This document shows positions 590 to 52,165 of a stretch of 52,236 bases of DNA, piece after piece; within the stretch, counting starts at the first letter, position 1, and every line of letters starts with the position of its first letter. The stretch comes from Chrysophaeum taylorii (taxonomy: Eukaryota > Sar > Pelagophyceae > Pelagomonadales > Pelagomonadaceae), in assembly GCA_029834535.1 (NCBI GenBank), contig JAQMWT010000089.1, positions 1 to 52,236 on the forward strand, in the 5' to 3' direction. A program made the position numbers and the translations under genes. The notes under the pieces are model-generated. The model saw nothing but the letters and a program-made list of their open reading frames with translations, was not told where the DNA came from and searched no databases.

Positions 590-1073
590 AGACAAGGTAT
601 TCTGCTGCACGTGTGGAGGTCAATCAAAGGTCAAAGTTGGATACATAGGATTTCTTCGTCACGGCAGCAGTATGTTGGAAGGTAGGGTCCAACATAAGAG
701 ATTTAATATCGGCAACGAGGAGCGAAAGGTGCTTGTACAGTGTGCTGTACGTACCGGCAGGCAGAGCATTGCTGAGCATGTCGCAGCAAAGGTCGTGGCG
801 AAGAGACAAGAGGAAAGATTCCTGTTGTTTGGTGTGGTTGTTAGCACGAATCAATTCCGGTCGAGTAGGATAGCGTAGTTTCCCGTTGCGAGGGTCGAGT
901 AAGATAATGTTTGCATACCCTCGGACGGTGGGCAATGGAGCAAGCATGGAGTGGATTTTAGAGCCGAGTTTGCGGTCACTTCCACGAAGATACCCTATAT
1001 AGCGACTATGAGATAAGTGGTGATCTTCCAGAGCAAAATGAGAGTCTTTATAGTCGAAAGAGTTGTCGGTGGC
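590..1073 (-). pseudogene. C5-cytosine methyltransferase-like domain, C-terminal motifs IX and X, element A
   Basis: Around 600-950 the minus strand encodes a segment with P-T-V-R-G-Y-A-N, then R-P-E-L-I-R-A-N-N and, near 755-790, D-M-L-S-N-A-L-P-A-G-T. Order and spacing fit motifs IX (R-x-x-T-x-R-E) and X (G-N-x-V/I-P) at the C-terminal end of C5 DNA methyltransferases, where motif X completes the cofactor fold. Here the usual G-N of motif X is S-N. Element D has the equivalent as I-A-N-A-I-P-A-G-T and element B as S-N-A-L-P-A-G-T. At least one frameshift separates this part from 1074-1664. The assignment rests on motif order, not on a search. Confidence 0.6.
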
Positions 1074-1664
1074 CTAGTAGGTAAGGAAGCCAGGCATAAC
1101 AAAGGAACATCTGGACAAGAGCTTTTGTATGGCGGTGCCATAGGTGGCAGCGGAGCCTACTTGAGGAAGGGCTTGGATTATCCACAAGTAACCCACAAAC
1201 GGCTCCAAATATATAGATCTGTCACTGTCGCGGGGGACGTTGGAGGCAGTAAACGTATACGTGCTTCCAAACGCGTCAATGGAAGCATGATATGTGGTGG
1301 CGGCGTTTTCTATGGTGAGGTTGCCGTCAGAATGGTGGCCGCCGGTTAGGAAGTAGGTATTATGTGATGTTGATGAGGTTGTAAGTAGTAAACTATGTGA
1401 CGGTTGGTCAGTTTCGAAAACGGTTATGTAATAGGACACAGGAGTGGGTGAGTTAGTGTGCAATCTGGCAAACACATTATAGAGGATGGTAAAAGCCTTG
1501 ACATGCAATGGATTAGTTGCATGTGGCAGTGGTTCCAAGGAGGAGCGTTTGAAACACAGCTGATGGTAAGTACGCTCGGACTGAACAGAGTGCGTGCGTT
1601 GCTCGTGAGCCCGTTGTGAGTGAAGGCGGAGAAATAACAAATTAAGTGTTTCAAGGTCAGTCAT
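1074..1664 (-). pseudogene. Methyltransferase-like domain, variable (target-recognition) region, element A
   Basis: A 196-codon open stretch that continues, through decayed sequence at 1665-1865, from the motif I-VIII segment. It opens in a region reading S-V-Q-L-T-M-T-D-L-E-T-L, matching V-R-L-T-V-T-E-L-E-T-L in element D. The body (including F-x-T-D-Q-P-S-H and T-G-G-H-H) has no motif I recognise. Its place between motifs VIII and IX is where C5 methyltransferases hold their target-recognition domain, and both Copia families keep it at similar length (about 250 residues). Function is inferred from position only. Confidence 0.5.
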
Positions 1665-1865
1665 GGTAAGCTGAACAGAACCTGTGCGAGATTAAGGTGC
1701 AAACGTTTTAGGAACGGGGACATATGGAGGATCGGGGAACACCCGAATCCAATCTATAGAGATATCTTTGGATAGGCAAAGTCGTTTAGGAATGGCTTGT
1801 ATGTTATCCACGATCTTAAAGAAGGGGCGTGGGTGGTGGATAGGCCATGACAGTATGTTGATTGG

Positions 1866-2462
1866 TCAAGTAGAATACCTGCGTGCGATGCAGATCCATC
1901 TTTCCTTAGATTGGTAGTCGCCACATAGGTAGGTCGGGAACCTGTCAACAACATCGGCACAGTAATCGAGTGTGGCATGGATGAGATTGGCGACATTTAT
2001 GTGGTCTCGATGACAGTATTTGTGGAGTGGTGTCATCTCAGCCAGTAGTACCAAGGGTTGGAGAAGTTTGATGACAGACAGCATGCTGTCGAACAGAGAG
2101 TCGTCGAGCAGGCTGTGTAAGTCTTTGGTCTTATGCTGCTTTAGTAGATTCCTGTTGGTGCAGGGAGGAGTGATCTCAATACTATCGCAATAAAATTTGC
2201 GCCTTTCCTCTGGTGAGATTAGGTGAAGGTGGTTGATAAAGGCGGGCAAAGATTCAAATAATAATACTGTAGGAAAACGATGGCGTAACATGCGCACAAG
2301 CGTATCATCAGACTCAACAACAACTTTTACATTGATATTTAAGCCTAGGTCATTCGTGGCTTGAGACAGGAATGCTGGGGTTGACAAACCAGAACAGAGT
2401 AACATGACAGAGGGTTTGCGAAGATTGGGCTCTTGTGAGAGAAACACTGGGCGAGAAAGCAT
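1866..2462 (-). CDS. C5-cytosine DNA methyltransferase-like domain, motifs I to VIII, element A
   Basis: 198 codons starting with ATG directly after the UGA that ends the protease frame, in the same frame. Motif I appears as L-L-C-S-G-L-S-T-P-A-F (residues 21-31), an acidic motif II as V-E-S-D (49-52), motif IV as I-T-P-P-C-T (97-102) with Cys101 at the catalytic position, motif VI as A-E-M-T-P after Q-P-L-V-L-L (135-145), and motif VIII as G-D-Y-Q-S-K-E-R-W (181-189). Their order and spacing match bacterial and eukaryotic C5 methyltransferases, which transfer a methyl group from S-adenosylmethionine to cytosine C5. The open segment ends at 1866; the rest of the domain follows in shifted frames. 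It is part of the retroelement polyprotein, not a host gene. Activity cannot be judged from sequence. Confidence 0.7.
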   Translation of the reverse strand: MLSRPVFLSQEPNLRKPSVMLLCSGLSTPAFLSQATNDLGLNINVKVVVESDDTLVRMLRHRFPTVLLFESLPAFINHLHLISPEERRKFYCDSIEITPPCTNRNLLKQHKTKDLHSLLDDSLFDSMLSVIKLLQPLVLLAEMTPLHKYCHRDHINVANLIHATLDYCADVVDRFPTYLCGDYQSKERWICIARRYST

Positions 2463-2465
2463 TCA
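2463..2465 (-). promoter_or_regulatory. In-frame UGA between protease and methyltransferase (candidate readthrough stop), element A
   Basis: The protease frame (3248 to 2463) and the methyltransferase frame (2462 to 1866) are the same frame, separated by one TGA followed at once by ATG. Element D has a TGA at the same junction (48948-48950) in an otherwise diverged sequence. This could be a leaky stop or the start of a separately initiated product. Confidence 0.5.
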
Positions 2466-3248
2466 TGTTAATGGCGGAGTGTTTTGCTGGACGAACTTGT
2501 TCTGTTTCCGAAGATTAAGAACCAAAGGGCGAATCCACGGGCGATCTGGTAAAACTCTCTTGAGGAGATAGTTGTAATATGCCAGTAGATCCCTGTTGTC
2601 GTGGTATCGCTTGAGCGGAAATGCGAGGGAGCGTAGTTCGAGTTGCTTGTCGCGAGCGATGTTGTAGGTGAGACAAGGGAGAGGAGGCAAATTGGCTGCT
2701 ACGTAATGTATGGGAATACGCACATCTTTGTCGATGCGGCTCGTGACAGCGCTGAGCTTTGGCTCAGATCGATCATTGAACACAGTGGTCAAGTTCGTCT
2801 GGTTCCACTCGAGCATGCTCAAGATAGCGAGATGTCGGTTGTGCACTGGCTGAAGACATGAGGCGAAGCCAATCTCCACGTAACCGATTTGTGGATGATC
2901 TGGTAGGGGAACAACTATATTACGTTTTAACGTCATACGCGAGGCACGTTGTTGTCCAGTGGCAGTTTGTATGATAATCGGCGCGTATTTGGAATCCAGT
3001 GGAATAATATGATTTGGTATAGCATAATCGTAGGTGGACATCAATGATATGGTAGCACAAGAGTCAAAATATAAAAAGGAACAATGTTGGGGGACACTGT
3101 GTACCTTCATATATTTCGTTAGTGCATTTTCCGAATGCGGGCAAGTAGTGGAGAGGCTGGCAGTGAAGAAGTTCTCCAGAAATAACAGGTGAGTTGGAAT
3201 GATAATCGGTTGAACAGGTGGTGATGGTTCGTCAGCCTCATCAGCCAC
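2463..3248 (-). CDS. Retroelement aspartic protease region, element A
   Basis: 261 codons. The segment with C-S-F-L-Y-F-D-S-C-A-T-I-S-L (about residues 57-70) places D-S-C-A-T where retroviral and Copia proteases have D-[ST]-G-A-[ST], and H-L-A-I-L-S-M-L-E-W further on resembles the hydrophobic L-[IL]-S-[VM] strand of Copia proteases. The protease would cut the polyprotein inside the virus-like particle. The second residue after Asp is Cys, not Gly, in A, B and D (D-T-C-A-S in D), a family trait rather than random damage. The upstream Gag frame reaches this one only through a frameshift in A, whereas in B Gag C-terminus and protease share one frame (41575-43134). Confidence 0.75.
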   Translation of the reverse strand: MADEADEPSPPVQPIIIPTHLLFLENFFTASLSTTCPHSENALTKYMKVHSVPQHCSFLYFDSCATISLMSTYDYAIPNHIIPLDSKYAPIIIQTATGQQRASRMTLKRNIVVPLPDHPQIGYVEIGFASCLQPVHNRHLAILSMLEWNQTNLTTVFNDRSEPKLSAVTSRIDKDVRIPIHYVAANLPPLPCLTYNIARDKQLELRSLAFPLKRYHDNRDLLAYYNYLLKRVLPDRPWIRPLVLNLRKQNKFVQQNTPPLT

Positions 3249-3826
3249 GCCGTGCTTCTCATCAAATGATGATAGCGAGGTCTGATCGACGTCCCTTGTG
3301 GTTTCGGCTTGTGGTGGTTGGTTGATGGCTGATTGGACCTGTGAAGATAGCGAGGACAGTAACGCTGGTGGTAACGCCGAGATGGCGGAAGCAGTAAAGA
3401 AGTTAGGCGCAATATCGGAGGGATCCCCCAGTGTGTTGGAGGCATTCTTGGTATCTGTAATAGGAGGAGTTGCCGTTGGGGTGGAGCAGTAGCAACAGTA
3501 TGATGTTGTGGCTCCACGTAGTTTAACGACTTTTCGGTCGAGGATAGATGAACGTCTACATCATAAATGATGTCTTCTGCGAACATGAGCTGTTCGTTTA
3601 GGCGAAGTAAGTCACTATTGTCCTCAGTAGATGTCGTTGACAGAATATCAGCGGATTGCAACAGAGTCTCAAATAACTTGGTGATGTTCTGTTGTAGCTG
3701 AGCCGTGATATCATTATCTGTCACATGCTTCGTAAGTTCACTACACTGCTCTTGAAGTGTATTTAAGGTGAGCTTCGTTCGGTCTAATAATTGCATGTTA
3801 GATCGAGAGGACCTGTCGAAAGTGCG
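3249..3826 (-). pseudogene. Gag C-terminal region and Gag/protease linker, element A
   Basis: Frames in this stretch encode the same residues as the continuous frame of element B: D-R-T-K-x-x-x-N-T-L-Q-E-Q-C-S-E-L-T-K, the L-L-R-L-N-E-Q-L-M-F-A-E-D region, then the repeated linker motif at 3519-3539 and a low-complexity Pro/Thr linker. In A a one-base deletion near 3826 relative to B (42709-42716 region) throws Gag out of frame, and a second indel near 3487 breaks the linker. Confidence 0.75.
3519..3539 (-). other. Repeated 21-nt linker motif (T-E-K-S-L-N-Y), Gag/protease junction, element A
   Basis: Reads GACCG(A)AA(A)GTCGTTAAACTA on the minus strand. It follows the conserved D-V-D-V-H-L-S-S segment at the end of Gag and precedes the Pro/Thr-rich linker to protease. 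The orthologous copy is 42389-42409. Confidence 0.85.
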
Positions 3827-5340
3827 GGGTAAATTGGACGGTCATGGGACTGTCCAGCAGTTTTCTTGGTGACGTAAGAATCACCAGAACGATAATACGA
3901 TAGGTCGCTGCGAGAGAAAGGCTGGCGAGCATCGTTAGAGTTACGCAAGCGTCTAGCGTTAAACGTGGAGGATGTTCCAGGTTGAGAAGAGGTAATGGAC
4001 GCGAGTGTGTTTGCAGTTTGAGTCAGACTTTTGTCTGATAAATCCAGCGTGTTGGTCAGTAGTAATTTTGGCTTTGGTTGTGGTATCAGTCCTTCAACAT
4101 AAGGTTGCCAAGAAACAGGGCGTCCTAAGCGTCTTTTGTTCGACCCATTTGATACTACATTATATAAGTCTAATGCGTATTCTAAGATATAGCTAGGGTT
4201 GGTAGGGTGACACAATCGTTCAGCGTCTGGCACAGGCCGAGATGAAGATCGAGTTTCATACATATAACACCAATCTACCCAACCACGATCGTAACGATTG
4301 TTGCTGGTATTATCGGCATAATGCCGATGTATCTCTTCATAAATTTTTATACAAAGAGTACCAAAGTCGAATTGAAGGTCAGTCTCTTCCTGGTTAAGTT
4401 GGTAAGAGATTTGCCTAAATGCTAGGACAGCTTCAATAAAGACATGGACATACCAGTTAGGATTATAAACAACAGAGTTAAACTGCTGTTTCAGGTAGGA
4501 CACATCAGTAGTCGCAACAGACTCGTAGTGACTAAAGGCAATGAGCATAATGGCTCGAGCCTTGTTGGGTAAATAACTTTTGTTATACGCCTCATTGATG
4601 GCGGGCCAGGCCGCAGGTGCTGGTTTTCCAACACTTTCAAGATTGAAGTAAGTATGCAAGAATGTAGCATACGTGTTCTGATAAGTGTGCCAGTCAGCAG
4701 CAGTTAACGAAAACATGGTAACAGGGGCACGAACACGGGTGTCAAAAGCTAATGCTTTCGGGTGCGCACGATTTAAGATTCGTTCCTCTTCTAAGAAACG
4801 GTGATTGATTTCAGGGCGTAATGCCTTGACTTCATTGTCGTAACAGACAGTAGCTAGCTGAGCTACTCCTGCGTCAGGTAAGTTGGGGAAAGCTTCATTG
4901 GTGAAGTGCCATTCCTGATACTCAGGGGGCAATTCATCAACAGCTAAACGGAGATCAGCAGCCCTATCGGTCTTCCATTCCAGGAAAACGCGATCGAGAA
5001 TTTGATTCCGGAGGATCTCGTAGTCCTTGCATGACCGAGTGTATGCTTCGTACGAGTCGTACTCGAGGAAGGCATCGGCATGACTGGACCGTAATAATTG
5101 CTTGATATGCTTAATTTGCAAGGATACCTTGCGGGTCTGAAGCTGAAATCGATTTCCTTCGTTGAGAAACTCAACTACAGGAGCTTCGAGCTTCAATATG
5201 TCCGCACCTGTGATCGCCTTGGGTGCGGCTCGTGCTGCGTGTTCTGCCATAGCAGTTGACGGGGAACCTGTGGGTTCAGTCACGCAGTTGACACTGTCTA
5301 GACATTCTAAGGGGGTCTGTCTATCGGTGTCTATGTACAC
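3784..5340 (-). pseudogene. Gag (capsid) protein, element A, frameshifted at C-terminus
   Basis: 518 codons from the first ATG (M-Y-I-D-T-D). A second Met at residue 31 begins M-A-E-H-A-A-R-A-A and may be the real start, because the first 30 residues read like translated leader. The protein is largely helical by composition, with many conserved Trp/Tyr/Leu positions shared with B, C and D (for example P-N-W-Y-V-H-V-F-I-E near residues 305-315). I see no CCHC zinc knuckle, which is usual in many but not all Copia Gags. A single-base loss near 3826 makes the last 14 codons spurious. Identity as Gag rests on its place after PBS and leader and before protease. Confidence 0.8.
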
Positions 5341-5775: not shown

Positions 5776-6088
5776 TGCAGAGCATTTAGCACGCAGTGGT
5801 AAGTCACCTGGGAAACCACCCCGTCTCATCATGAACGTCTGGAAGGTTAATTCGGGGAATGAAAGGTTATGTTCCCTATATCCTCAGAACACGACAGGCG
5901 GCATCTAGAACTACACGAGAAAGGCTAAGTGTATAGTGCTACATACCTCGGGACGCGCTAGACCATGATGATGAGCTTGAGCACAAATCAGAGGACTAAA
6001 TGACTGTGTATAAAGGAAGAAGAAGGGTAAGGAGGAGATCACGTTCTCAACGGACGGATAAGGGTAAGAGGCAGCAGATTTCTCTGCA
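5776..6088 (-). repeat. 5' LTR of element A (313 bp)
   Basis: Bounded by TGCAGAG and CTCTGCA, a 7-bp terminal inverted repeat containing the usual TG...CA. It matches the B LTR split by LINE1 (27445-27608 plus 30658-30806), the partial LTR at 44643-44853, and more distantly the opposite-strand LTR at 8823-9141. On its sense strand TTTATACACA occurs about 80 bp in and could serve as a TATA-like element. Confidence 0.85.
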
Positions 6089-7911: not shown

Positions 7912-8822
7912 CGTTGTAGTAATTGTCTTGAAGGCTGCCAGAGCAAATTGGCAAGAAGAAGGTTGTGAACACTTGGAGAGCCCGAGGTATGTTGACGCTT
8001 TCTTCGCGTCTCATTCCTCTCATGATGACGGAAGAACTCGCTGTTAATGATTTCAAAAGAACCCGCCTTTTTTTGCAAATTTTGTGCAAGATACCGCCCA
8101 AAACATACTTTCGCTTCAGCATGTTACTACCTCCGTTAAGCTCTAAATGCACATGTTGTTTTTTCGATCGTAACCCAAATGCGCATTTAGAGCACGTTGA
8201 TCAACAAAGGTTGTTCATCCTATACATCCTTAAAGAGCGGATGAACAAGTCCTCTGGTTGCTACCGCATGTCCTGGCTCGCCTGCCTTTGAACATGTCCC
8301 CTCCGGATGCTGCATCGTGACAGCTACGGATTCAAATGTTTTTGCGATGCACTCAATGTTGTTTTATGTGGTGCTTTGATAGTCACCTGTCATCTCATGT
8401 ATCAGCTCACACATACTGACAGCAGAATTCACACGATCACCCTGACCGCTGTATTAGACACCCTGTGTTCATCTTGTTGGTTCTTGTGCATTTTGGGTAG
8501 TCGAATCTGGTACACTTTCATTTTGCTCGCTCTACACTTGCGTTGTAGTAAAATGTAGCCATAAGAGCCTGAATCCCGAATCCTCGGTTGTTTGCCATGG
8601 AGGTGCATGCGCAACCACGCGAGGACTTGAAGGTCTATTCGCGCGAACAAGAGTAGAGTGTGGGACAGTTCTACTAAGACGCCTCAGCTCCACACAGGCC
8701 GCTGGTTACCGGAGCTCTCGTCGCAGTGCAAGGGGACAATCTAAATGTCGACTGCCACAGATGGGACTGCGGTGGTGCGCGCAAGGGGTATGAGAGGGTG
8801 TGAGTGGCGGAAGGGACCAAGG
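7912..8822 (+). other. Non-coding stretch downstream of the DRC9-like gene, with an 11-bp inverted repeat
   Basis: No gene is recognisable. GCTCTAAATGC at 8140-8150 and its exact reverse complement at 8183-8193 could form a hairpin with a 32-nt loop, some 230 nt after the stop codon. It may lie in a 3' UTR, but that is a guess. The short hydrophobic frame at 8307-8558 has no supporting features. Confidence 0.4.
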
Positions 8823-9141
8823 TGCAGAGAAATCCGCTAACTCCTACCCTTATTCCGTCCGTTGAGAACGCGGTCTCTTCCTTACCCTTCTTCTTCCTTT
8901 TTACACAATCAAATAGTCCTCTGATTTGTGCTCAAGCTCATCATCATGGTCTAGCGCGTCCCGCAGGTACGTAGTAATTACATGTTACACTGATGTGTTG
9001 CTATGTATCGTCTGTCGTGTGCCGAGGCTAGGGGGACCCTATCTTTTAGTTCCCTGAAACCTACTTATCCTTGCCAGACTCACGCGGTGAGACGGGATGG
9101 TCTCTCAGTGATCTAACCACTGCCTAGCGGAATTCTCTGCA
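8823..9141 (+). repeat. 5' LTR of element C (319 bp)
   Basis: Starts TGCAGAGAAATC and ends TTCTCTGCA. It shares the block TTGTGCTCAAGCTCATCATC with the A and B LTRs read on the opposite strand, but its 3' half is much diverged, so it represents another subfamily. Confidence 0.8.
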
Positions 9142-9155
9142 GGTTATGGGCCCAG
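9142..9155 (+). other. Primer-binding site of element C (initiator tRNA-Met anticodon arm)
   Basis: GGTTATGGGCCCAG immediately after the LTR, identical to the PBS of element A despite diverged surroundings. The following 9156-9566 is non-coding leader, with TGAGTGTACATAGACAC at its Gag end shared with A. Confidence 0.8.
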
Positions 9156-10218: not shown

Positions 10219-10239
10219 GACCGAAATGTCGTTAAACTA
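10219..10239 (+). other. Repeated 21-nt linker motif (T-E-M-S-L-N-Y), inside the replaced block of Gag C
   Basis: Reads GACCG(A)AA(T)GTCGTTAAACTA, with the same two variable bases as the methyltransferase/integrase site of A and B, but followed by Gag-linker-like sequence. Confidence 0.8.
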
Positions 10240-11183: not shown

Positions 11184-11204
11184 GACCGGAACGTCGTTAA
11201 ACTA
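11184..11204 (+). other. Repeated 21-nt linker motif (T-G-T-S-L-N-Y), end of Gag, element C
   Basis: Reads GACCG(G)AA(C)GTCGTTAAACTA and is orthologous to the Gag/protease site of A and B. The flanks have diverged while the 19 constant bases have not. Confidence 0.85.
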
Positions 11205-11403
11205 TGGGGGAGACCATCCTGCTGTGTCTGCACCCAACTCCTCTACTCCATCTTACGTAAATAGCATCAGTTCATCACCCGCCACTGTTCCCGCGGAATC
11301 AGTCAATTTTACAGCGGACGCTATAGCAATATTATCATCCGAGCGGCTGACTGAGCTCTCGTCACATGTCACTGCAGCTGTGGCGGCAACTCCTGACCGC
11401 TAA

Positions 11404-33005: not shown

Positions 33006-33837
33006 TCAATCCTGTAGAGACTTGTCATCAGAGGCATGATGCATGCCGAGTAGAGAACGAAAAGTGGAGAACTCAGCAGCAAGTGGCTTTGTAAAACCAT
33101 CAGCCACGTTTAGCTTGCCGGGAACATGATGGACTCGAATTTTCTGTAGCGAGATGTACTCACGGATCTTAAACCATCTGGTCGACAGTGCCTTGGAGCG
33201 AGAGGATCCATCTGGGTTATTAGAGGTGTGAACAGCAGCAGCATTGTCAGACAAGAGAGGTAGGCTTCTGATGAAGCGCATATCTTCAGCAATTGGGTTG
33301 TCATTGTCATCGAAGTCAACAGGATCAGCGGTGTTCTCACCATTAACATTGTTGACGTAGAAGGTGGGGTTGACGACAAAGGAGAGTTCCAACAGCAGCT
33401 TGCGTAGCCAAACAGCTTCATCAGCACAAATACTGAGGGCAATCAACTCAGCTTCGTGAGTTGAGCAGGAGACAATCGGTTGAAGCTTGCTTTTCCAACA
33501 GATAAGGCAGTTGAAATGATAGAAGACAAACCCGGTGGTAGATTTCCTATCTTCCTGTGCTAAGGAAGGGGCATTGTCAGCGTCAACCATGGCAACTAAG
33601 GGATCAAACTGTCCAGTGGATACATCCTGCGGTTGGTAGTCGACCACAGTATAGAGATCGGTTCTATTAGCGGAAACAGTGCGAAGGTGAGCTTCAATAG
33701 AATTACCTTTAGGATGAAACCAGATGCGAAGTGAGCGGTTTTCCGGCTTCCTCACGTAGCGGAGCAGGTGTTCTAGCATCGGCGAAGTGAGCGGTTTTCC
33801 GGCTTCCTCAGGTAGCGGAGCAGGTGTTCTAGCATCT
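33006..33837 (-). CDS. Copia RNase H domain, element B
   Basis: The frame runs to TGA at 33006. It contains D-R-K-S-T-T-G-F-V-F, the hallmark of Copia RNase H, then C-W-K-S-K-L-Q-P, S-x-x-E-A-E-L-I-A-L with the catalytic Glu, S-D-N-A-A-A-V with a catalytic Asp, and H-V-P-G-K-L-N-V-A-D near the C-terminus. RNase H degrades the RNA strand of the RNA-DNA hybrid during reverse transcription. The domain itself is open; its join to RT is broken by the 56-bp tandem duplication. Confidence 0.85.
33726..33837 (-). repeat. 56-bp tandem duplication in pol of element B
   Basis: Units 33726-33781 and 33782-33837 differ at only two or three bases. As 56 is not a multiple of three, the duplication shifts the frame between RT and RNase H. 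Confidence 0.9.
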
Positions 33838-34947
33838 GGACATGAACGTACGTGGGTGCATGCATACCACGCGAACATCTGCCCAAGGCTTGCGAGAAGT
33901 CAGGTCGGCAGGCGACTTGCATGAACACCAGCTTGCCAAGGAGGGTGGCAAAGTGCGAGTTGATGTACAACTCTGTTTCAGAGCTGGGAGTGCCATCTTT
34001 ATACTTGAAGGACGATGACATAGGATATTTAAGCGGAGTAAGTTGCTGCAAGACAGGATGATCAGCGAAGAGTTCATCAAGCTTGGCTTGCACATCCAGA
34101 GAAATGGATCCATCAGATGTACGACACACACGCATGCCTAGGAGGGTATGGACAGGTTCAAACTGCTCTGCTCTACAGCATACCGTTTGTGGAGGGCATC
34201 CTGTAGCTCAGTACGAAGAGTGTCATCATTGGACACAATAACAATGTCGTCTACTGACAGACTGCATACGACGAACTTAGCATGTGCGGATACTCGAGCA
34301 TATAGGCAAGAGTCCGAATGCAGGCGCTTGTAGCCAAGGCTACGGAAGAAGCCGTCTATCTCTTTGTTCCAAAGAGATGGCGATTGCCGAAGTCCATAAA
34401 GTGACTTCAGCAGTTTCGGTAGGCGTCGGCCCTTGTACTTAGCGTCATCGGGGTCGATAAGCTTGATGCCGTCTGGTAACTGAACATAGACGTTGGCATC
34501 AATGTCAGACTGAACGAAGGCGTTCGGGACGTCTGCGTGGTAGACAGGCAATTGCTTGTATGCTGCAATCGCCAGTAGTACCCGGATTGCGGTCATTGTG
34601 GCCATTGGGCTGAAGGTGCCAAAGAAATCGGCGCCAAGGGAGGCTAGGAAGCCACGTAGCACGAGGCGAGCCTTGTGCTTAACGTATTTGCCTGCAGAGT
34701 CCGTTTTAATCTTCAGCACCATCCTGCTGTCAATAGCACGAGAGACACCGTCGGGCAATGAAAGCTTGAAGCAGCCAAAGCGGACAATGTCGTGGAGTTC
34801 CTTGGCGATGGCCTTGAGGTAGGCGTGCCTGTCTTCAGGCGACAAACCGTGGAGGCACTTGAGTTTATATTCGTCAATGGAAACGTCAGCTTCTTGGACC
34901 TTATATTCGTCAGGACCAACAATGGCTGGTGAATTGTAGTTTAACAA
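33773..34947 (-). pseudogene. Copia reverse transcriptase, element B
   Basis: Frames 34947-34138 and 34135-33773 are separated by one stop or shift near 34136. The first has K-A-R-L-V-L-R-G-F, Y-H-A-D-V-P-N-A-F (motif A Asp), L-K-S-L-Y-G-L-R-Q-S-P-S-L-W (the Copia signature) and S-V-D-D-I-V-I-V (motif C, V-D-D in place of Y-V-D-D). The second continues the thumb/connection (P-x-D-F-S-Q-A-L-G). RT copies the element RNA in the particle. The N-terminal residues directly follow the linker motif at 34990-35010. Confidence 0.85.
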
Positions 34948-35006
34948 CGCTGCTTATATTCGTCAGGACCAACAATGGCTGGTGAATTATAGTTTAACGA
35001 CGTTGC
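34901..35006 (-). repeat. 53-bp tandem duplication at the integrase/RT linker, element B
   Basis: Units 34901-34953 and 34954-35006, both starting TTATATTCGTCAGGACCAAC. The left unit carries a degenerate copy of the 21-nt motif ending at 34953 and the right unit most of the intact one. 53 bases shift the frame. Confidence 0.9.
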
Positions 35007-35644: not shown

Positions 35645-35727
35645 CTGCCTTGCGGTTGTTAGGTTGCCTGGCTCCTGTCGGTCCGGCCTGGCTCCCATGC
35701 TCGGGAGAGGTCTGAAGTTAGTTAGTT
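35645..35727 (+). mobile_element. SINE-like 3' tail insertion in element B pol
   Basis: The block GGCTCCTGTCGGTCCGGCCT followed by GGCTCCCATGCTCGGGAGAGG and a GTTAGTTAG tail matches the end of the SINE-like element at 45840-45900 and, less exactly, the LINE 3' ends. Only the last 83 bases or so are present, as in a severe 5' truncation. No clear target duplication is seen. Confidence 0.65.
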
Positions 35728-37219
35728 GGAGCCAGGTACAAGAACGAGGTCACCTTGTGCAAAAAGGTCCTTGTAAGAAGGAAGCAAGGGCGGCGGTGGC
35801 ATAGAGCCAGAATCGTCGACGGGAGCGTCGGAAGGAGGAGGAGAAGCAGGAGCAGGGGACGAAGAAGGAGCTGATGGAAGTGGAGAGTGCCCCCTCTGAG
35901 GATGAGGTGTCCGTGTCCCCCTCTGAATGGAAAGGTCTTGGATAGCAGCGTGGGGTGTGAGCGAGAAGGGCGCGGGAGGAGCGTGAGGCGGAGGAGCAAG
36001 TTCAGGATCAGGAGTAGGATGCTGGAGCATGTAGAGGAATTGCAGCTTGGATGAAACACGGATTTGTCCGTTTTCAGGGTTGAGGACGACGTCGGCAATG
36101 TGGTCAACACGTGGGGAGACGAGCGGGTTTCGCGCGTTGGCGCAACATAGATATAAGTATTTGCGGCGGCACGGTTCCCACTTGTGGTGCTCGTGGGGTT
36201 CCAATAGAAGGTAGCATTCAGCGCCGAAGATCTTGAGCATGTCATGCTGGGGAGTGCTCAGTTGATTGTAGAGTAGCTGTTGCGGACTCAGGATAGCATG
36301 GTGAATGCGCTCGAGCGTGGCGTTCGGGAGAAGGTTGTAGCTTTGGATGGTGTGTATCACCGCCCAGGGAAACATGATGGCTGGTTCCACGATCTTGGAG
36401 CCACGATAATGAGCATTAAGGAGAGAGCGAAGGCGAGTTGAGGAGGCGGAGGCGATGAAGCCGATGGCTGACTCAACTTCAAAGTTAAAGTGGTGCATGT
36501 ACGGCGGGAAAGCGATGAGCTGAATGCCCTTATCGACGCGGTACGGGGAGGTAATGTGCTGGCTAAAATAGGGCTTGAAGGCATCGGAGTAGAGGGTGCG
36601 CAGGTGCACGTTGAGTTGTGGACGACAATAGTCATACACAAAGTCCCGAGCTTGAGTGAACTCCGTGGCGTTGGTGGTGCGTGTAAAGTACACCAAGAGA
36701 AACTTCGATATAAGTTCCTTGAACACAATGATATGGGTGAAGCCTCCCCATTCTGACGGAATTGTCACATAGCCGCCGTCGCACGCCCAGACTTCGCCGG
36801 CTTTGTGAGTTTGCTCAAAAGAGGGCTTGGTCGGATTGAAGTGCGTGTGCGGGTGGCGCTTGTTGTGCGCGATGTAGTCGGTGCATAAGTCGCGATACGG
36901 TAGATCTGAGGCAGAGAAGCCAGGGCGAGCCAGTACGTTGGGGGCCTTGGCTGCAACGTTGTCGGGGCAGTGGTGCACCCGGTGGAAGCGATTGGCACGT
37001 TCTTTGGCGTTTAGGTATTCAGAAGATCCGTGTGCGAGGGATTTGCGAGGAATGGAATGAGCGGGGATATGACGTTTGCGCCGAACATCGAACTTGAGTT
37101 CGGTGTCCAAGGCAGGAGGAGGCGGTGCGTCGTCATCCTGGTGCGCAGCAGGGTCACTTGGAGGTGCGTCCTCGTCATCACAAGTATCTAGAGTATCTTC
37201 GTAGGATGACGAAGACATA
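35728..37219 (-). CDS. Copia integrase, element B
   Basis: Open within the frame 37509-35722. After the linker motif come F-H-R-V-H-H-C and L-C-T-D-Y as a likely HHCC zinc site, then W-A-C-D-G-G-Y (first catalytic Asp), L-Y-S-D-A-F-K-P-Y-F (second Asp) and about 35 residues on F-N-F-E-V-E-S-A-I (catalytic Glu), the DDE triad of retroelement integrases. The C-terminal part has V-V-L-N-P-E-N-G-Q, shared with element D, and a Pro-rich tail with Q-R-G-T and Q-R-G-H encoded by CAGAGGGGG repeats. Integrase inserts the element cDNA. The last codons read into the SINE-like tail. Confidence 0.85.
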
Positions 37220-37240
37220 TAGTTTAACGACATTTCGGTC
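37220..37240 (-). other. Repeated 21-nt linker motif (T-E-M-S-L-N-Y), methyltransferase/integrase junction, element B
   Basis: Reads GACCG(A)AA(T)GTCGTTAAACTA and is orthologous to 528-548. Confidence 0.85.
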
Positions 37241-38109
37241 AAGCAGTTGCTGGAGATAGAAGTCATGAAGGCTTGTGCCAAAGACAAGGTATCTGCTGTG
37301 CTGCACGTGGTGAAGGCCGGATCAAAGGTCATGAAGGTGGATACATAGGATTTCTTCATCACGGCAGCAGCATGTTGGAAGGTAGGGTCCAACATAAGGG
37401 TCTTAATATCGGCAACGAGGAGCGAGAGGTGCTTGTACAGTGTGCTGTACGTACCGGCAGGCAGAGCATTGCTGAGCATGTCGCAGCAAAGGTCGTGGCG
37501 AAGAGACAAGAGGAAGGCTCCTGTTGTTTGGTGTGGTTGTTAGCACGAATCAACTCCGGTCGAGTGGGATAGCGTAGTTTCCCGTTGCGAGGGTCGAGTA
37601 AGATAATGTTTGCATACCCTCGGACGGTGGGCAATGGAGCAAGCATGGCGTGGATTTTAGAGCCGAGTTTGCGGTCACTTCCACGAAGATATCCTATATA
37701 GCGACTATGGGATAAGTGCTGATCTTCCAGAGCAAAATGAGAATCCTTGTAGTCGAAAGAATTGTCGGTGGCCTTGTAGGTAAGGCAGCCAGGAATCACA
37801 AGAGAGCATCTGGACAAGAGCTTTTGTATGGCAGTGTCATAGGCGGCAGCGGAGCCAACTTGAGGAAGGGCTTGGATGATCCACAAGTAACCCACAAACG
37901 GCTCCAAATATACAGGTCTGTCTCTGTCGCGGGGGACGTTGGAGGCAGTAAACGTATACGTGCTTCCAAACGCGTCAATGGAAGCATGATATTTGGTGGC
38001 GGCGTTTTCTATGGTGAGGTTGCCGTCAGTGTGGTGGCCACCTGTTAAGAAATAGGTGTTGTGTGATGTTGATGAGGTTGTAAGTAGTAACCTATGTGAC
38101 GGTTGGTCA
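37241..38109 (-). pseudogene. Methyltransferase-like domain, C-terminal half, element B
   Basis: Frames 37907-37359 and 37509-37241 carry the end of the variable region, P-T-V-R-G-Y-A-N, R-P-E-L-I-R-A-N-N (motif IX) and D-M-L-S-N-A-L-P-A-G-T (motif X), joined by one frameshift near 37520. The sequence stops matching A at 38109, where LINE2 begins; motifs I-VIII are absent from this copy. Confidence 0.65.
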
Positions 38110-41554: not shown

Positions 41555-41574
41555 GAAGTTAGTTAGTTAGTTAG

Positions 41575-43134
41575 TATGGGAATACGCACATCTTTGTCTA
41601 TGCGGCTCGTGATAGCGCTGAGCTTTGGCTCAGGTCGATCACTGAACACAGTGGTCAAGTTCGTCTGGTTCCACTCGAGCATGCTCAATATAGCGAGATG
41701 TCGGTTGTGTACTGCCTTAACACATAAAGCGAAGTCAATCTTCACGTAACCGATTTGTTGATGATCTGGTAATGGAACAACAATGTTACGTGTTAACATC
41801 ATATGTGAGGCACGTTGTTGTCCAGTGGCAGTTTGTATAATAATCGGTGCATATTTGGGATCCAGTGGAATAACATGATTCGGAATTTCGTAGTCGTAAC
41901 TGGACATTAAAGATATGGTAGCACAAGAGTCAAAATATAAAAAGGAACAATGTTGGGGAACACTGTTTACCTTCATATATTTCGTTAAAAAGGCATTTTC
42001 CGAATGCGGGCAAGTAGTGGAGCGACTGGCAGTGAAGAAGTTATCCAGAAATAAAAGGTTATTCGGAATGATAACCGGTTCAACAGGTGGTGATGGTTCG
42101 TCAGCCTCATCAGCCATGCCGTACTTCGCATCAAATGATGATAGCGAAGTCTTGTCGACATCCCTTGTGGTTTCGGCTTGTGGTGGTTGATTCATGGCTG
42201 ATTGGACCTGTGAAGATAGCGAGGACAGTAACGCTGGTGGTAACGCCGAGATGGCGGAAGCAGTAAAGAGGTTAGGCACTATATCAGAGGGGTTACCCTG
42301 TGTGTTGGAGGCATTCTTGGTATCTGTAGTAGGAGGTGTTGCCTTTGGCGTGGGAGCAGTGGCGACAGTATGATGTTGTGGCTCCACGTAGTTTAACGAC
42401 TTTTCGGTCGATGATAGATGAACGTCTACATCATAAATGATGTCTTCGGCGAACATGAGTTGTTCGTTTAAACGAAGCAAGTCACCATTGTGCTCCGTAG
42501 ATGTGGTTGATAGAATATCGGCGGATTGCAACAGAGTCTCAAACAACTTGGTGATGTTCTGTTGTAGCTGAGCCGTGATATCATTATCTGTCACATGTTT
42601 TGTAAGTTCACTACACTGCTCTTGCAGTGTATTTATAGTGTGCTTAGTTCGATCCAATAATTTCATATTAGATCGAGAAGACCTGTCGAAAGTGCGAGAA
42701 TAAATTGGACGGTCATGGGACTGTCCAGCAGTTTTCTTGGTGACATAAGAATCACCAGAACGATAATACGATAAGTCGCTGCGAGCGAAAGGCTGGCGTG
42801 CATCGTTAGAGTTACGCAAGCGTCTAGCGTTACATGCGGGGGACGTTCCAGGTTGAGAAGAAGTAATGGACGCAAGAGCATTTGCAGTTTGAGTCAGACT
42901 TTTGTCTGATAGATCCAGCGTGTTTGTAAGTAGTAATTTCGGTTTTGGTTGCGGTGTCAAACCTTCAACATAAGGTTGCCAAGAAACAGGGCGTTCTAAG
43001 CGTCTTTTATTCGACCCATTTGATACTACATTATATAAGTCTAATGCGTATTCTAAGATATAGCTAGGGTTGGTAGGATGACACAATCGTTCAGCGTCTG
43101 GCACAGGCCGAGATGAAAATCGAGTTTCATACAT
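41575..43134 (-). CDS. Gag C-terminal half and protease, element B
   Basis: One continuous frame from the Gag middle region through the linker motif (42389-42409) to protease, showing that Gag and protease are a single product in this family. Protease has F-D-S-C-A-T-I-S-L and H-L-A-I-L-S-M-L-E-W. The frame ends artificially where LINE2 cuts it at 41574. Upstream, a TAG at 43147-43149 (TGG in A) separates it from the N-terminal Gag. Confidence 0.8.
42389..42409 (-). other. Repeated 21-nt linker motif (T-E-K-S-L-N-Y), Gag/protease junction, element B
   Basis: Reads GACCG(A)AA(A)GTCGTTAAACTA in the intact Gag-protease frame. It is the best evidence that the motif is translated through in frame. 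Confidence 0.9.
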
Positions 43135-44211
43135 ATAACACCAGTCTACCTAACCACGATCGTAACGATTGTTGCTGGTATTATCGGCATAATGCCGATG
43201 TATCTCTTCATAAATTTTTCTACAAAGAGTACCAAAGTCGAATTGAAGGTCAGTCTCTTCCTGGTTAAGTTGGTAAGAGATCTGCCTAAATGCTAGGACA
43301 GCTTCAATAAAGACATGGACATACCAGTTAGGATTATAAACAACAGAGTTAAACTGCTGTTTCAGGTAGGATACATCAGTAGTCGTAACAGACTCGTAGT
43401 GACTAAAGGCAATGAGCATAATGGCGCGAGCCTTGTTGGGCAAATAACTTTTGTTATACACCTCAGTGATGGCGGGCCAGGCCGCAAGTGCTGGTTTTCC
43501 AACACTTTCAAGATTGAAGTAAGTATGCATGAATGTAGCATACGTGTTCTGATAAGTGTGCCAATCAGCAGCAGTTAGCGAAACCATGGTAACAGGGGCA
43601 CGAACGCGGGTGTCAAAAGCTAATGCTTTCGGGTGCGCACGATTTAAGATTCGTTCCTCTTATAAGAAACGAACATTGATTTCAGTGCGTAATGAGTTGA
43701 CTTCATTGTCGTAACAGACAGTAGCGAGCTGAGCTACTTCTGCGTCTGTTAAGTTTGGGAAGGCTTCGTTGGTGAAGTGCCATTCCTGATACTCAGGGGG
43801 CAATTCATCAACAGCCAAATGGAGTTCAGCAGCTCTATCGGTCTTCCATTCCAGGAAAACGCGATCGAGAATTTGATTCCGATAGATTTCGTAGTCCTTG
43901 CATGACCGAGTGTATGCTTCGTACGAGTCGTACTCGAAGAAGGCATCGGCATGGCTGGACCGTAAGAGTTGTTTAATATGCTTAATTTGCAAGGACACCT
44001 TGCGAGTTTGAAGCTGAAATCGATATCCTTCGTTGAGAAACTCAACTACAGGAGCTTCGAGCTTTAGTATGTCCACACCTGTAATCGCCTTGGGTGCGGC
44101 TCGTGCTGCGTGTTCTGCCATAGCAGTATACGGGGAACCTGTGGGTTCAGTAACGCAGTTGACACTGTCTAGACATTCTAAGGGGGTCTGTCTATCCGTA
44201 TCTATGTACAC
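43135..44211 (-). pseudogene. Gag N-terminal half, element B (two nonsense mutations)
   Basis: Matches Gag of A from M-Y-I-D-T-D to Y-D-R-G-W but carries TAA at 43660-43662 (GAA in A), and TAG at 43147-43149 in place of Trp. The ATG near 43587 that opens the middle frame corresponds to an internal Met of A. Otherwise the sequence is well preserved. Confidence 0.8.
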
Positions 44212-44628: not shown

Positions 44629-44642
44629 CTGGGCACATAACC
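44629..44642 (-). other. Primer-binding site of element B (one mismatch)
   Basis: GGTTATGTGCCCAG on the minus strand, differing from the A and C sites by one base in the GGGCCC core. Confidence 0.75.
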
Positions 44643-47543: not shown

Positions 47544-48950
47544 AATGATAACGTCAAAGGTACCAGTTTCGATCGTCCTGTCTACTCACACTCCTCTAAC
47601 CGCAATGCACGCTCTAATATGTCTCTTATGGACCGAGCTACTTATCAAGTTGATCGTCTTCGCCACCTGTTTGGTAAATTACAGGAAGCGAATCCCAACC
47701 CCTCTACCGACTCTAAAATGGTACAGGAGGAAATGAAAAGCTTACTGAGTACCCTCTGGACAACCGCTTCTCAAGCTTCGACACAGTCCTTAGATCCTGA
47801 TGAAGCCACCCAAGTTCATCTCTACTTATCTCGAGTTGATACTATGTCCAATACCATAGTGAACCTCTTAGAAGCCGATAAGGAATCTCATGTTTTAGAA
47901 GAAAAGTATCAAGCTGAAACATCTGCTCCTGAAGCGTCCCCCACTGATGCGGAGCAGAGGGGGACTGCTGATACAGGGAAAGTGCTCCACACTTTTCTGT
48001 CCATTAAAGATGATGAAATCGATAACATCCCTCAGCCGCTATTGCAGCACATAAACGCTAAAGCTCAGAATGCTATCGTTCGTCGTCAAGCTCGGGAAAC
48101 TTCCTCGCACTCCGAGCTCCCAAATAATCTACCCAACGAAGATAATGAAGATGGCACAGATCCCCCTGTGTTGCTACCAAAATTAAACAATGGTTTTACA
48201 CTCGTCGTTGTGCCTTCCGAACAAACGCAAAGTTTCATGACACAGTACGTGTTTGGTCAAAGCTCAACACATGCCTGTTATGCAACAATGCTTAAACTGT
48301 ACAACGAGTACAATTTGCCGCTAATGACTACGCCAGGATATGCTGACACATGTGCTTCTCAACATGTAATTAACTTTAAACGTTATGCTGATCCTATCCA
48401 CATCGTAAAGCTACCCGAGTCCTTATCACCTGCTATCCAGACTGCTACGGATACGCAGAGAATCACACATGCTATGATTATAAGGACCGTCATTCCCGCT
48501 CTCCCAAAGCATCCAAATGTGGGATATGTAAAGCTAGACGTTGCGCTTTTCCTACCCAAGCAAAACGACCATAACGATCCCGATCTGCACATCATCAGTA
48601 TGACTCAATGGGGAGAAGATAAACTTGGTATACATCTTTATGGAGTTGAATTTAAAGGACAATCATCTATCCAGAGTAAAATTGATGATAATGTCAAGAT
48701 TACTTTGTTTAGACTCAGTAACCTGTTGCCAACTCTACCAATTTACTCGCTACAACAAGCAAAAGCGCGTAAAATGGAACTTCGCTCACTACAGTTCAGA
48801 CTATGTGCTTTAATTGAACAACGCGGAATGCTCAAACTATATTCCACCCTCATGGAACGAGTAATTTACGTCCCACGGCTTAAAACCATCCTGGAGTCAA
48901 TGCATTCGCAGCTGCCTTACATACGCAAGCATTTCCCACCTCCTGTATGA
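47544..48950 (+). CDS. Gag C-terminus and aspartic protease, element D
   Basis: Open in one frame to TGA 48948-48950. Gag end: D-R-A-T-Y-Q-V-D-R-L, V-H-L-Y-L-S-R-V-D-T. Linker: D-A-E-Q-R-G-T-A-D-T, encoded over CAGAGGGGG at 47955-47963. Protease: Y-A-D-T-C-A-S-Q-H-V-I with Asp at the catalytic place and the same Cys as A and B in place of Gly, then L-H-I-I-S-M-T-Q-W. The protease ends I-R-K-H-F-P-P-P-V followed by the conserved UGA. Confidence 0.75.
   Translation, partial: NDNVKGTSFDRPVYSHSSNRNARSNMSLMDRATYQVDRLRHLFGKLQEANPNPSTDSKMVQEEMKSLLSTLWTTASQASTQSLDPDEATQVHLYLSRVDTMSNTIVNLLEADKESHVLEEKYQAETSAPEASPTDAEQRGTADTGKVLHTFLSIKDDEIDNIPQPLLQHINAKAQNAIVRRQARETSSHSELPNNLPNEDNEDGTDPPVLLPKLNNGFTLVVVPSEQTQSFMTQYVFGQSSTHACYATMLKLYNEYNLPLMTTPGYADTCASQHVINFKRYADPIHIVKLPESLSPAIQTATDTQRITHAMIIRTVIPALPKHPNVGYVKLDVALFLPKQNDHNDPDLHIISMTQWGEDKLGIHLYGVEFKGQSSIQSKIDDNVKITLFRLSNLLPTLPIYSLQQAKARKMELRSLQFRLCALIEQRGMLKLYSTLMERVIYVPRLKTILESMHSQLPYIRKHFPPPV
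47949..47966 (+). other. Repeated purine-rich linker motif (Q-R-G), Gag/protease linker, element D
   Basis: GATGCGG(AG)CAGAGGGGGA. A second copy without the AG stands in the integrase/RT linker at 52124-52141. Confidence 0.65.
48948..48950 (+). promoter_or_regulatory. In-frame UGA between protease and methyltransferase (candidate readthrough stop), element D
   Basis: The frame before (to 48947) and after (open from 48951 through 50708) is the same. The junction matches that of element A. The following codon is CGC, as against ATG in A, so only the stop itself is shared. Confidence 0.5.
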
Positions 48951-50857
48951 CGCAAGGTTACAACACGTTTGCTCCATACAGTAACTTCATCTCCTAGCCC
49001 ACGAATACCTACAGTAACTTTACTTTGCTCTGGGATGTCCACTCCTGCATTCCTGGCTTGCGCTTCTAATGACTTGCAAATCAACATCAACGTTAAAGTT
49101 ATTGTTGAGAGCGACGACAATATCACGCACATGCTACGAAGACGTTTTGGTAGTCCCATCGAAGTTTTCCCATCCCTACCTAAGTTTTTGACATATCTCC
49201 ATCGAGCATCGGACGTTGAACGTGCACGATATTACACTGACATAGTGGAATTGACATCACCATTCACAAATCGCAACATAATCAATGGGAGATCCATTTC
49301 CACCTTCGAGCGCGATATAGATGATTCTTTGTTCCCAAGTGCTCTAAGTGTACTTGAGCTTTTAAAGCCGCTTGTTCTCTTCATGGAAATGACTCCACCA
49401 CACTCCGCATCGTATGAAGATCATATACGAGTTACTAATCTCATCTTCTCAACGATGCACTATACGGTGGACATGTGTGACCGATTTCCATGCTATTTAT
49501 GTGGAGATTATCAAGCCAGAGAAAGATGGATCCTCGTCGCACGCAAATATAACACCGGCCCTCTTGATCTGCTTTCATGGCCTAATAAACGAGTCACTTC
49601 CTTTCTGGATATTGCAGACCACGCTAATTCCATCAGTCGCAAGTTAATAGTCGACGAACCTTGGACGCAGGTCTTTCCTGACATACCATTCGTGTCCACA
49701 CCTAAAACCTACAATATTTTCAGTCGTACAGGATCCGTGCGCTTAACTGTGACTGAGCTTGAAACCTTAACTATGCTGTTCCTTCGTCTGCACTCTAATA
49801 AAACAGTCGAACATCCCAGTCAAGATGAAATGGAGGGCATTTCTAACTTTCGCCTGGGATTCTTGACTAATTCAAGAAAACCACTTGCTTGCATGAGATC
49901 CCCTATTGAACTCAAAGCTTTTGTGCTCCTCTATAATATTATGGGACGATTATTCCCTAAATCCATCACATTACCTGTGTCCTTTCGTATTACAACTATC
50001 GAATCTAACCAACCATCTCACAGGTTATTCTTAAATAAATCCTCTACTTCATCCATCATTTACATCACTGGTGGAAGACATACAGGCGGAGACATAACAG
50101 TTTCTAACTCTTCTAAATACCAGGCACACATAAATGCTTTTGGCGAAACCTACGCCCTTTTAACACACGATGCCGGAATCGATAAGACTGCTTCTCTCGA
50201 ACCAGTTACCGGTTTTCTTTGGCTTTGCCAAGCATACCATCATAATAATGAAAATCAAGACACGCGTCGTCTAGTACAAGCACTGGTTTCCTATACTTCT
50301 CCTGTATTTCACGATTCTTTTGTCTTCTACCCTCAGGAAAATCGTCTTGAATTTATCGACAAAATATTTGCTTTAAGTGACATGCATTTGTCCCAAAGCA
50401 GATACTTGGGCTTTATAACATCAAGCGATAGGAAGATGGGTGCCAAAGTTCACTCTATATACACTCCCACTCCTACCATTCGTGGATTTGCTAATATGCT
50501 GGTGTACGATCCACGACTCGATCGCATCCGACACTACTCAACTCGCGAATTGGCACGCGCCAATAACTTCACAGCGCACCAAATCAATTTTCTTTGTCTT
50601 TGTCCCCTGACCTATGCTGTGATATCATCGCAAATGCTATTCCAGCTGGAACATATCATACAATTTATAAACATTTGTGTCAGCTTGTTTATGACTTGCG
50701 TACATTAACACTATCACCATCGTTTGACCCTGATCACGCTCCTCTAACCAAAAACTATAGGTCAACCTTCTTCACAAATATATTCCCAACAGATACATCC
50801 TTAACATTACACCAGAGTTCCATTACTATGTTCTACATCTCCAATAAAAAACTTTAA
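48951..50857 (+). pseudogene. C5-cytosine methyltransferase-like domain, element D (catalytic Cys replaced)
   Basis: Counting from ATG 48969: motif I L-L-C-S-G-M-S-T-P-A-F (18-28), V-E-S-D-D (46-50), motif IV E-L-T-S-P-F-T (94-100) with Phe99 in place of catalytic Cys, motif VI F-M-E-M-T-P-P, motif VIII G-D-Y-Q-A-R-E-R-W-I-L-V-A-R (179-192). A variable region of some 290 residues follows, then P-T-I-R-G-F-A-N, S-T-R-E-L-A-R-A-N-N (motif IX) and, after a shift near 50600, C-D-I-I-A-N-A-I-P-A-G-T (motif X). The complete motif series is the strongest support for the methyltransferase call in the family. The Cys loss would abolish methyl transfer in this copy. Confidence 0.7.
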
Positions 50858-51532
50858 TGTTGTGATACTATCCTTCTAACCACGAACTTCCTCTTTTCAT
50901 ACTGATTCAGTAGCTCATGCTTTCCTCTCTAACATCCATCCGCAGATATATCATCTCCTACTAAAGAAAAACAAATACCCCTTATAACGCCAAGACAGCT
51001 CCATGAGAAGCATGCGCCCTTCGATAAGAAAGTCCATGCCAGGGGCACCCTTGCATTTCGAGATGCGCAACAACGAGCTACCAATTTTCACAACATTCAC
51101 CATTCCAGTGATTCTCAAGCCATAAAAGCTGTTCAGGTTATTGCCAGTCCTGGACACCACCCATCTGACGTACCCTACCGTAAGTTCTGTGTGGATTGTA
51201 CGATTCATAAAAACGCTTTCCTCATCCACACCACCTTATCAAGCAACCATCATTCGAAAAATTTTTCAACCTGGTGAAGCCTGGGCATGTGACGGTGGTT
51301 ACGTATCTGTGCTCTCGGAATGGGGATCCTTTCGACATATCATTGTTTTCAAGTGTCTCATTTCTAAATTTCTGTTAGTGTACTTTTGTCGTAGCACTAA
51401 CTCCAGCGAATTTTGTAACGCCCTTGAGTTTGTCCGTAATTTTGTTCTACTTATGTTCATGTACAACTAAAACAAATCTATTGTGATTCCTTTAAACCCT
51501 ATTTATCTCAGCATGTTACAACCCCCTTCCGT
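50858..51532 (+). pseudogene. Integrase N-terminal and first catalytic region, element D (decayed)
   Basis: Pieces include P-S-D-V-P-Y-R-K-F-C-V-D-C (zinc site, about 51160-51205), then W-A-C-D-G-G-Y-V-S-V (first Asp, about 51283-51310) and F-R-H-I-I-V-F-K-C-L-I-S-K-F-L-L-V-Y-F. At least three shifts or stops (near 51240, 51420 and 51470) break it. Between 50858 and 51100 no clear homology to B is visible. Confidence 0.65.
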
Positions 51533-52165
51533 GTGGAACATGGTATTAATATGTCCGCGTTCCCCCCTTACTTACATGTCTTTAATCATGAAGTCGAAGC
51601 CGCTGTTGGTCACATAGCCACTGCCGCGTCTACACGACTCCGGCATATGCTTAATGTATCCTATAAAGGTCACCCCCTAACAGATCCGGCACCACACTAC
51701 CCGTGGGCTGTTATACATGCTATCCAATCGTATAATCTCCTCCCTAACGTTTCCCTCGAACGTATTTACAATAAAGTCCTAAGCCCCCAACAAGTTTTGT
51801 TAGACCAATGTAATGTTCCCCAACAAGACTACCTCAAACCTTTTGGTTCTGTTTGTTATTTGCATTTGGAACCTAACGAATTTCATAAATATGAACCCCG
51901 ATGTCGTCCCTACATCTACTTATGCGGTGCTAACGTTATAAACCCTTTAATAACACCCCATGTTAATCATTTAGCCGATGTTGTCCTTAATCCTGAAAAC
52001 GGTCAAGTCCGTGTTTCTAAACTGACTTTCCCTCATCTTTTTTCTAAATCTCCTCCTGATTATGAACAACATCCACCTCCTGCACCTTCACCTGACATTC
52101 CCTTCTCTGTCATGGCACCCCTAATGATGCGGCAGAGGGGGATATGCCATGCCTACGAACACTGA
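51533..52165 (+). CDS. Integrase catalytic core and C-terminal region, element D
   Basis: Open frame with A-F-P-P-Y-L-H-V-F-N-H-E-V-E-A-A-V (catalytic Glu), Y-P-W-A-V-I-H-A-I-Q-S-Y-N-L-L-P-N, P-Q-Q-V-L-L-D-Q and V-V-L-N-P-E-N-G-Q-V-R-V, all aligned with integrase of B. The second Asp lies just upstream, near 51488, in another frame. The Pro-rich tail ends with M-M-R-Q-R-G-I over the repeated purine motif (52124-52141) and then TGA. 52166-52236 continues the linker toward RT. Confidence 0.75.
   Translation: MEHGINMSAFPPYLHVFNHEVEAAVGHIATAASTRLRHMLNVSYKGHPLTDPAPHYPWAVIHAIQSYNLLPNVSLERIYNKVLSPQQVLLDQCNVPQQDYLKPFGSVCYLHLEPNEFHKYEPRCRPYIYLCGANVINPLITPHVNHLADVVLNPENGQVRVSKLTFPHLFSKSPPDYEQHPPPAPSPDIPFSVMAPLMMRQRGICHAYEH

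Follow-up and report, generated by a model that had tools for sequence, protein, structure and literature searches.

Retrotransposons of the locus and their methyltransferase-like region

The stretch of DNA considered here, which we call the window, comprises 52,236 nt of Chrysophaeum taylorii (contig JAQMWT010000089.1 of assembly GCA_029834535.1, positions 1-52,236 of the forward strand), and carries three retrotransposon copies: A and B on the minus strand, the latter split by a long interspersed nuclear element (LINE), and D on the plus strand. In all three, a gag-like frame, a protease-like motif, a region resembling C5-cytosine methyltransferases (MTases) and an integrase follow one another in the same order (Table 1). 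Element B additionally has an RVT_2-type reverse transcriptase and an RNase H-like end, with the integrase upstream of the reverse transcriptase in reading direction, and RVT_2 was also found 4.2-4.3 kb downstream of one A and one D MTase on other contigs. The layout as seen is therefore that of Ty1/Copia elements. A third and more distant family, C, was found outside the window; its MTase, assigned from the protease-MTase-integrase region, lies in the equivalent place.

In element A the MTase-like series begins directly after the TGA that closes the gag-protease frame and runs from 2462 to about 708, motifs IX and X being separated from motifs I, IV, VI and VIII by an insert of about 285 residues. 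An earlier reading of this DNA made from its letters alone (hereafter the sequence-only reading) had proposed a C5 MTase inside a Copia polyprotein, between protease and integrase, and the motifs, database and structure matches and family C described below bear this proposal out. Its motifs in A, including the PPC of motif IV, are in the correct order; of the span that it gave, 590..2462, the start holds, whereas the end reached slightly too far, because 708-590 is a linker towards the integrase. For D, where a series at 48951-50857 had been read, motifs I to IX are in frame as far as 50705; motif X is out of frame because the window copy departs, after residue ~552, from the frame of most listed relatives, although a few listed copies have an identical tail. 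Element B, as had been read, holds the C-terminal part only, at about 37380-38109; the counterpart of A 1411-2707, MTase N-part included, is missing and a LINE occupies its place. The variable region of 250-290 residues that had been said to split the enzyme corresponds to an insert of 220-290 residues between motifs VIII and IX, the position of target recognition.

On sequence comparison and predicted structures, we consider it confirmed that the stretch of A and D between protease and integrase is a strongly diverged C5-cytosine MTase. Six of ten aligned members match a single phage DNA-MTase family of PHROGs, phrog_116 (best E 4e-4), with both halves covered, and this family, matched by D at E 4e-4, gave the only MTase match for D among single-sequence searches of Pfam, NCBIfam and PHROGs. 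When a low-confidence model of D was compared to the Protein Data Bank (PDB) with Foldseek, 50 of the 50 listed rows were C5 MTases, so that the structure check suggested by the sequence-only reading came out in its favour, within the limits of such a model. Family C matches PF00145 at E 8.5e-8 (profile positions 39-159) and TIGR00675 of NCBIfam at E 2.9e-8, the latter under that model's cut-off. The families are themselves related: A and D had already been recognised as two diverged families, and copy L010 of the former shares 46% of 654 aligned positions with copy L044 of the latter; the A+D profile scores 56.8 against that of C, where 60 column shuffles reach at most 24.8, which together indicate a likeness beyond chance.

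The sole outside relative found among 8000 candidates scored is an MMETSP transcript (P0001; 642 aa, 22 members; E 3.2e-50), which in the alignment lacks the Pro-Cys of motif IV and retains motif VIII together with the insert and a large portion of the C-part. No outside relative of C was found among the 8000 candidates scored, nor with the joint profile A4, and no relative was confirmed in viral contigs. Four matches of P0001 in G000 (C390:156248, C664:115399, C331:116745 and C200:11140) start earlier on the transcript than the others; they are not among the A and D copies listed and perhaps represent a fourth family, perhaps further copies. Two C5 MTases of the host's own were examined in the 70.8 Mb assembly, a DNMT2 (L001; best PDB match 1g55, E 3.9e-39) and a DNMT5-like gene (L002; best PDB match 7r76, E 3e-143, with 7r78, of the same sequence, titled DNMT5). 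The DNMT5-like gene was not supported as kin of A and D (hhalign E 0.32) or of C (E 0.59), nor was DNMT2 as kin of A and D (E 0.17). Phage C5 MTases are among the matches to host DNMT2.

Conservation, the in-frame stop and the remaining features

The three families are abundant, and the following numbers are lower bounds: at least 150 matches for A (N-part; 150 of 910 candidates scored), at least 75 copies of D (81 matches; 75 of 1586 candidates scored) and at least 77 of C (87 matches; 77 of 773 candidates scored). The search for intact copies that the sequence-only reading had called for yielded copies open through the MTase in all three families. Residues were counted in nine copies of C and in the 30 best-scoring loci each of the 150 A and 75 D listed, window copies included. 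The motif-IV Cys, whose presence in most copies had been named as support for an active enzyme, is kept in 29/30 A, 29/30 D (the exception being the window copy, with Phe at 49263-49265) and 9/9 C, and the motif-VI Glu in 30/30 A, 29/30 D (one stop) and 9/9 C. The ratio of nonsynonymous to synonymous substitution (dN/dS) is about 0.1: 0.08 in A (3 pairs) and 0.10 in D (15 pairs) for the MTase N-part, 0.07 and 0.11 for the C-part, 0.22 and 0.12 for the insert, and 0.22 for the D integrase (6 pairs), as estimated from the loci open over 585 codons (3 of 4 in A, 6 of 21 in D).

The MTase frame of A and D opens directly behind an in-frame stop ending the gag-protease frame, a feature that goes beyond the sequence-only reading. 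Of the 30 A loci, 29 have TGA here, continued as TGA CTA in 11; of the 30 D loci, 28 have TGA and one has TAA. In the remaining A locus and the remaining D locus the frame is shifted at the stop site. Because the stop stands at one place in two families with only about half of their residues in common, it would seem to serve to limit pol relative to gag-protease, and we regard the conserved TGA as likely to be a programmed stop, judging from sequence. Readthrough is favoured where C comes next to the UGA, and by UGA CUA, and a UGA is also found in Tca2 of Candida albicans, an element of the Copia class. One reference title in PMC2194720 mentions, for Sindbis virus, the cytidine that follows the UGA. 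Single RNA folds of the 123 nt starting at the TGA, made for seven copies, revealed no common structure by eye. In C, protease, MTase and integrase are in one frame; the C copy L069 is without such a stop, and its gag frame overlaps the protease-MTase frame by 40 bases, the latter being shifted by -1.

Table 1. Features of elements A, B and D in the window
Feature	Positions	Strand	Basis or remark
A, gag-like open frame	3784..5340	-	Open frame; order of open frames as in B; no match in Pfam
A, end of gag-protease frame	2463..3560	-	Protease-like FDSCAT; closes at TGA 2463-2465; from sequence
A, in-frame TGA	2463..2465	-	Protease/MTase junction
A, MTase N-part	1857..2462	-	Motifs I (LLCSGLSTPA, 2373-2411), IV (ITPPC, 2151-2174), VI (Glu, 2037-2039), VIII (DYQSKERW, 1887-1919); TGA at 1866
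A, insert in motif VIII-IX gap (target-recognition position)	993..1856	-	Stops TAA at 1692, TAG at 1074
A, MTase C-part	708..992	-	Motifs IX (LRYPTRPEL, about 830-880), X (LSNALPAGTY, about 728-791)
B, gag-protease frames	41563..44211	-	A 2708-5987 matches 41574-44852 at 92.9%
B, end of insert and MTase C-part (start approximate)	37380..38109	-	A 1-1410 matches 36670-38109 at 92%
B, linker and integrase	35722..37380	-	PF00665 E 0.017, PF25597 E 1.7e-4, neither reaching the curated cut-off
B, Copia-type reverse transcriptase	34138..34953	-	PF07727 RVT_2, E 7.8e-40
B, RNase H-like end of pol	33006..33899	-	By eye, from translation
D, gag end with protease-like frame	47544..48950	+	ADTCAS, by eye; closes at TGA 48948-48950
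D, in-frame TGA	48948..48950	+	Protease/MTase junction
D, MTase N-part	48951..49565	+	Motifs I 49008-49049, IV 49245-49280, VI Glu 49386-49388, VIII 49506-49550
D, insert in motif VIII-IX gap	49566..50420	+	Alignment, models
D, MTase C-part	50421..50705	+	Motif IX; motif X out of frame
D, integrase part	51440..52165	+	Weak integrase matches in D relative L044

The protease of element A was assigned from its motif alone, Pfam giving no match, and the integrase matches of the D relative L044 (PF00665 E 0.008, PF25597 E 3.4e-5) are both under cut-off. Repeat pieces at 5776-6088, 27445-27608, 30649-30806 and 44643-44806 would fit as long terminal repeats (LTRs). Two LINE copies, 98% identical and with endonuclease- and reverse transcriptase-like frames by eye, lie at 27606-30650 and 38530-41573, one of them inside element B at the missing MTase N-half, the other interrupting an LTR-looking repeat. 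Between the RNase H of B and its likely 3' LTR, at 30948-32920 on the minus strand, there are one or two extra frames (273 and 408 aa), the 408-aa frame having a coiled-coil look by eye; in some Copia elements, env-like genes occupy this place. A diverged relative of element A lies in opposite orientation at 8821-11687 (pieces 66-73% identical), and a simple tandem repeat at 14525-14799 translates as RQTD repeats within an open frame.

Proposed mechanism and competing explanations

With a probability of about 0.68, we read A/B and D as retrotransposons of Ty1/Copia type with a C5-cytosine MTase built into pol, protease preceding and integrase following it, an enzyme that would likely be made after bypass of the UGA, be packaged, and methylate the element's own cDNA or its new insertion. 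Building on the identity, placement, copy number and conservation of the domain and on the conserved stop, we infer readthrough, packaging, DNA as the substrate and a benefit to the element. With gag-protease followed by the UGA and then by MTase, integrase, reverse transcriptase and RNase H, bypass would yield little MTase-pol; the protease might free the MTase or leave it in the particle, packaged with reverse transcriptase and integrase, and the enzyme would then methylate cytosines of the element cDNA before or after integration, the nested domain serving as the DNA-recognition part. The possible benefit might be protection from host sensing of unmethylated DNA, silencing timed so as to spare the host, or a marking function.

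Several results weigh against this reading, and they bear in part on whether the domain is an MTase at all. The Pfam match that the sequence-only reading had named as a check was obtained with C and not with single A or D proteins, which gave no MTase match at E<=1, and the A members examined had no match in PHROGs or NCBIfam. The structure models are of low confidence (predicted local distance difference test score, pLDDT, 45). The MTase N-part alone, A/D against C, scored 13.0 with hhalign, below the maximum of 21.5 reached by 40 shuffles; against PDB sequences, profile A1 retrieved no C5 MTase at E<=10 (best E 0.68, SRP54) and profile A2 a single one, at E 1.3. Profiles A2 and A3 hold four and five of the nine C copies at hand (L006 and L007 are in neither, while L003 and L008 were left out because of stops); matches of A3 to a cytochrome c555 trimer (E 1.7e-4, no stretch passing singly) and to Rieske proteins (E 0.09 or worse) were not taken as related. 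That the domain is unrelated and its motifs a product of inspection by eye is nevertheless very improbable, given the uniform Foldseek rows, the coverage of both halves by phrog_116 and the homology to C. Other points concern activity: motif VI in A and D reads EMTPP (EM[TS]) instead of the ENV of C (one ENA), motif I is diverged, P0001 lacks the Pro-Cys noted above, and all three window copies are broken, that of A by three in-frame stops (Table 1) and a frame change near 640. The departures in motifs VI and I and in P0001 would fit a once-active MTase that the polyprotein now keeps without catalysis, for structure or for binding nucleic acid; this is an improbable account in view of the near-invariant Cys of motif IV and the low dN/dS over the MTase parts. 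Finally, there is no strong CpG decay, the CpG to GpC transition ratio being 1.02-1.49 in five copy sets (A 1.02, D 1.45, their upstream parts 1.27 and 1.46, C 1.49 from 3 pairs; one LINE pair gave 0.47). These ratios and the observed/expected CpG (elements 0.91-1.07, LINEs 1.30-1.31, a single long frame of the window 0.92) are too weak and confounded as a sign of self-methylation, and were not used as such.

The substrate and the insert invite two further explanations. The MTase might act on RNA in the manner of DNMT2/DNMT6, with the primer tRNA or the genomic RNA of the element as conceivable targets: DNMT2 is also among the fold matches (Foldseek ranks 9, 14 and 23), sequence at such divergence cannot reveal the substrate, and retroelement particles package RNA and tRNA. 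A large extra domain at the DNA target-recognition position and sequence matches that point to DNA-MTase families make this improbable as well. Alternatively, the insert might be an AlkB/TET-type dioxygenase dependent on 2-oxoglutarate and Fe(II), and the element, at least in C, would then both methylate cytosine and oxidise the product (e.g. to 5-hydroxymethylcytosine). Low-confidence insert models of relatives resemble AlkB/TET-like dioxygenases by one aligner, a likeness that the sequence-only reading did not include, and C offers a candidate HxD...H set (H in 6/9 copies, Q in 3/9; distal His in 7/8 copies covered). Foldseek on the insert models gave no significant dioxygenase resemblance, no dioxygenase family was matched in Pfam (E<=1), PHROGs or NCBIfam, the insert profile had none among its matches to PDB sequences, and the iron ligands are absent from A, D and P0001 in the alignment; we consider this explanation unlikely. 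A fuller version, with a composite base-modification module in pol, is likewise unlikely: C would methylate and then oxidise the cytosines of its cDNA, a hypermodification like that of some phages, and A and D would retain the nested fold, iron-free, as a DNA-binding part.

If the methyltransferase reading is correct, cytosine MTases, which few retrotransposons are known to encode, would extend to Copia-type elements with a clear layout, and this in a genome with DNMT2-like and DNMT5-like genes besides. Their abundance, at least some 300 copies across the three families, and the strong constraint on those copies that were compared suggest that the element gains from the enzyme in some way. It thereby becomes testable why an activity that normally serves to silence retroelements should be encoded by them. 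Were the nested domain an oxygenase, this would be, to our knowledge, the first pairing of writer and oxidiser in a retroelement.

Comparison with known systems

A literature search over titles and the starts of abstracts (PMC9998398, PMC12477816 and PMC6338049 included), mostly within openly available papers, found no Copia element with the present layout. PMC12344493 places some DNMT3 members in LTR Copia and DIRS elements, citing a 2018 paper (PMC5890265); since that paper calls the charophyte element Gypsy, the Copia label may be a slip, and the mention comes without a layout in the parts used. The fungal DNA transposons bearing TET/JBP (PMC12730594) are likewise mobile elements with cytosine-modifying dioxygenases, and the same source mentions phages that pair a C5 MTase with TET/JBP. 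Its carriers, however, are DNA transposons and Helitrons, no retrotransposon encoding TET/JBP having been found there, whereas the dioxygenase likeness of the present insert is a weak structural match.

As in A and D, Tca2 has a UGA within a retrotransposon, located between gag and pol (PMC2194720); in Tca2 the stop comes after gag, whereas in A and D it lies downstream of the protease motif and just ahead of the MTase. In yeast, the Tca2 junction sequence did not suffice by itself for readthrough (PMC2194720). The precedent for retrotransposon-borne C5 MTases to which the sequence-only reading had appealed is found in PMC5890265, which describes LINE-, DIRS- and Gypsy-borne DNMTs, reports de novo CG methylation by retrotransposon DNMTs, and states that Symbiodinium Copia elements are without a DNMT domain. 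SymbioDIRS-Dnmt3 and SymbioLINE-Dnmt of Symbiodinium resemble the present families in their hundreds of C5 MTase copies under purifying selection, but are DIRS and LINE elements, not Copia-type ones (PMC5890265). KnitGypsy-Dnmt3 of Klebsormidium nitens, with a Ka/Ks under 0.2, is like A and D an LTR-type retrotransposon with a C5 MTase within Pol and several copies (PMC5890265). It is, however, a Gypsy element with an MTase of the Dnmt3 class, while the present elements have the Copia order of protease, MTase, integrase and reverse transcriptase, an MTase too diverged to be placed in a tree and not assigned to Dnmt3, a large nested insert and, in A and D, an in-frame TGA before the MTase.
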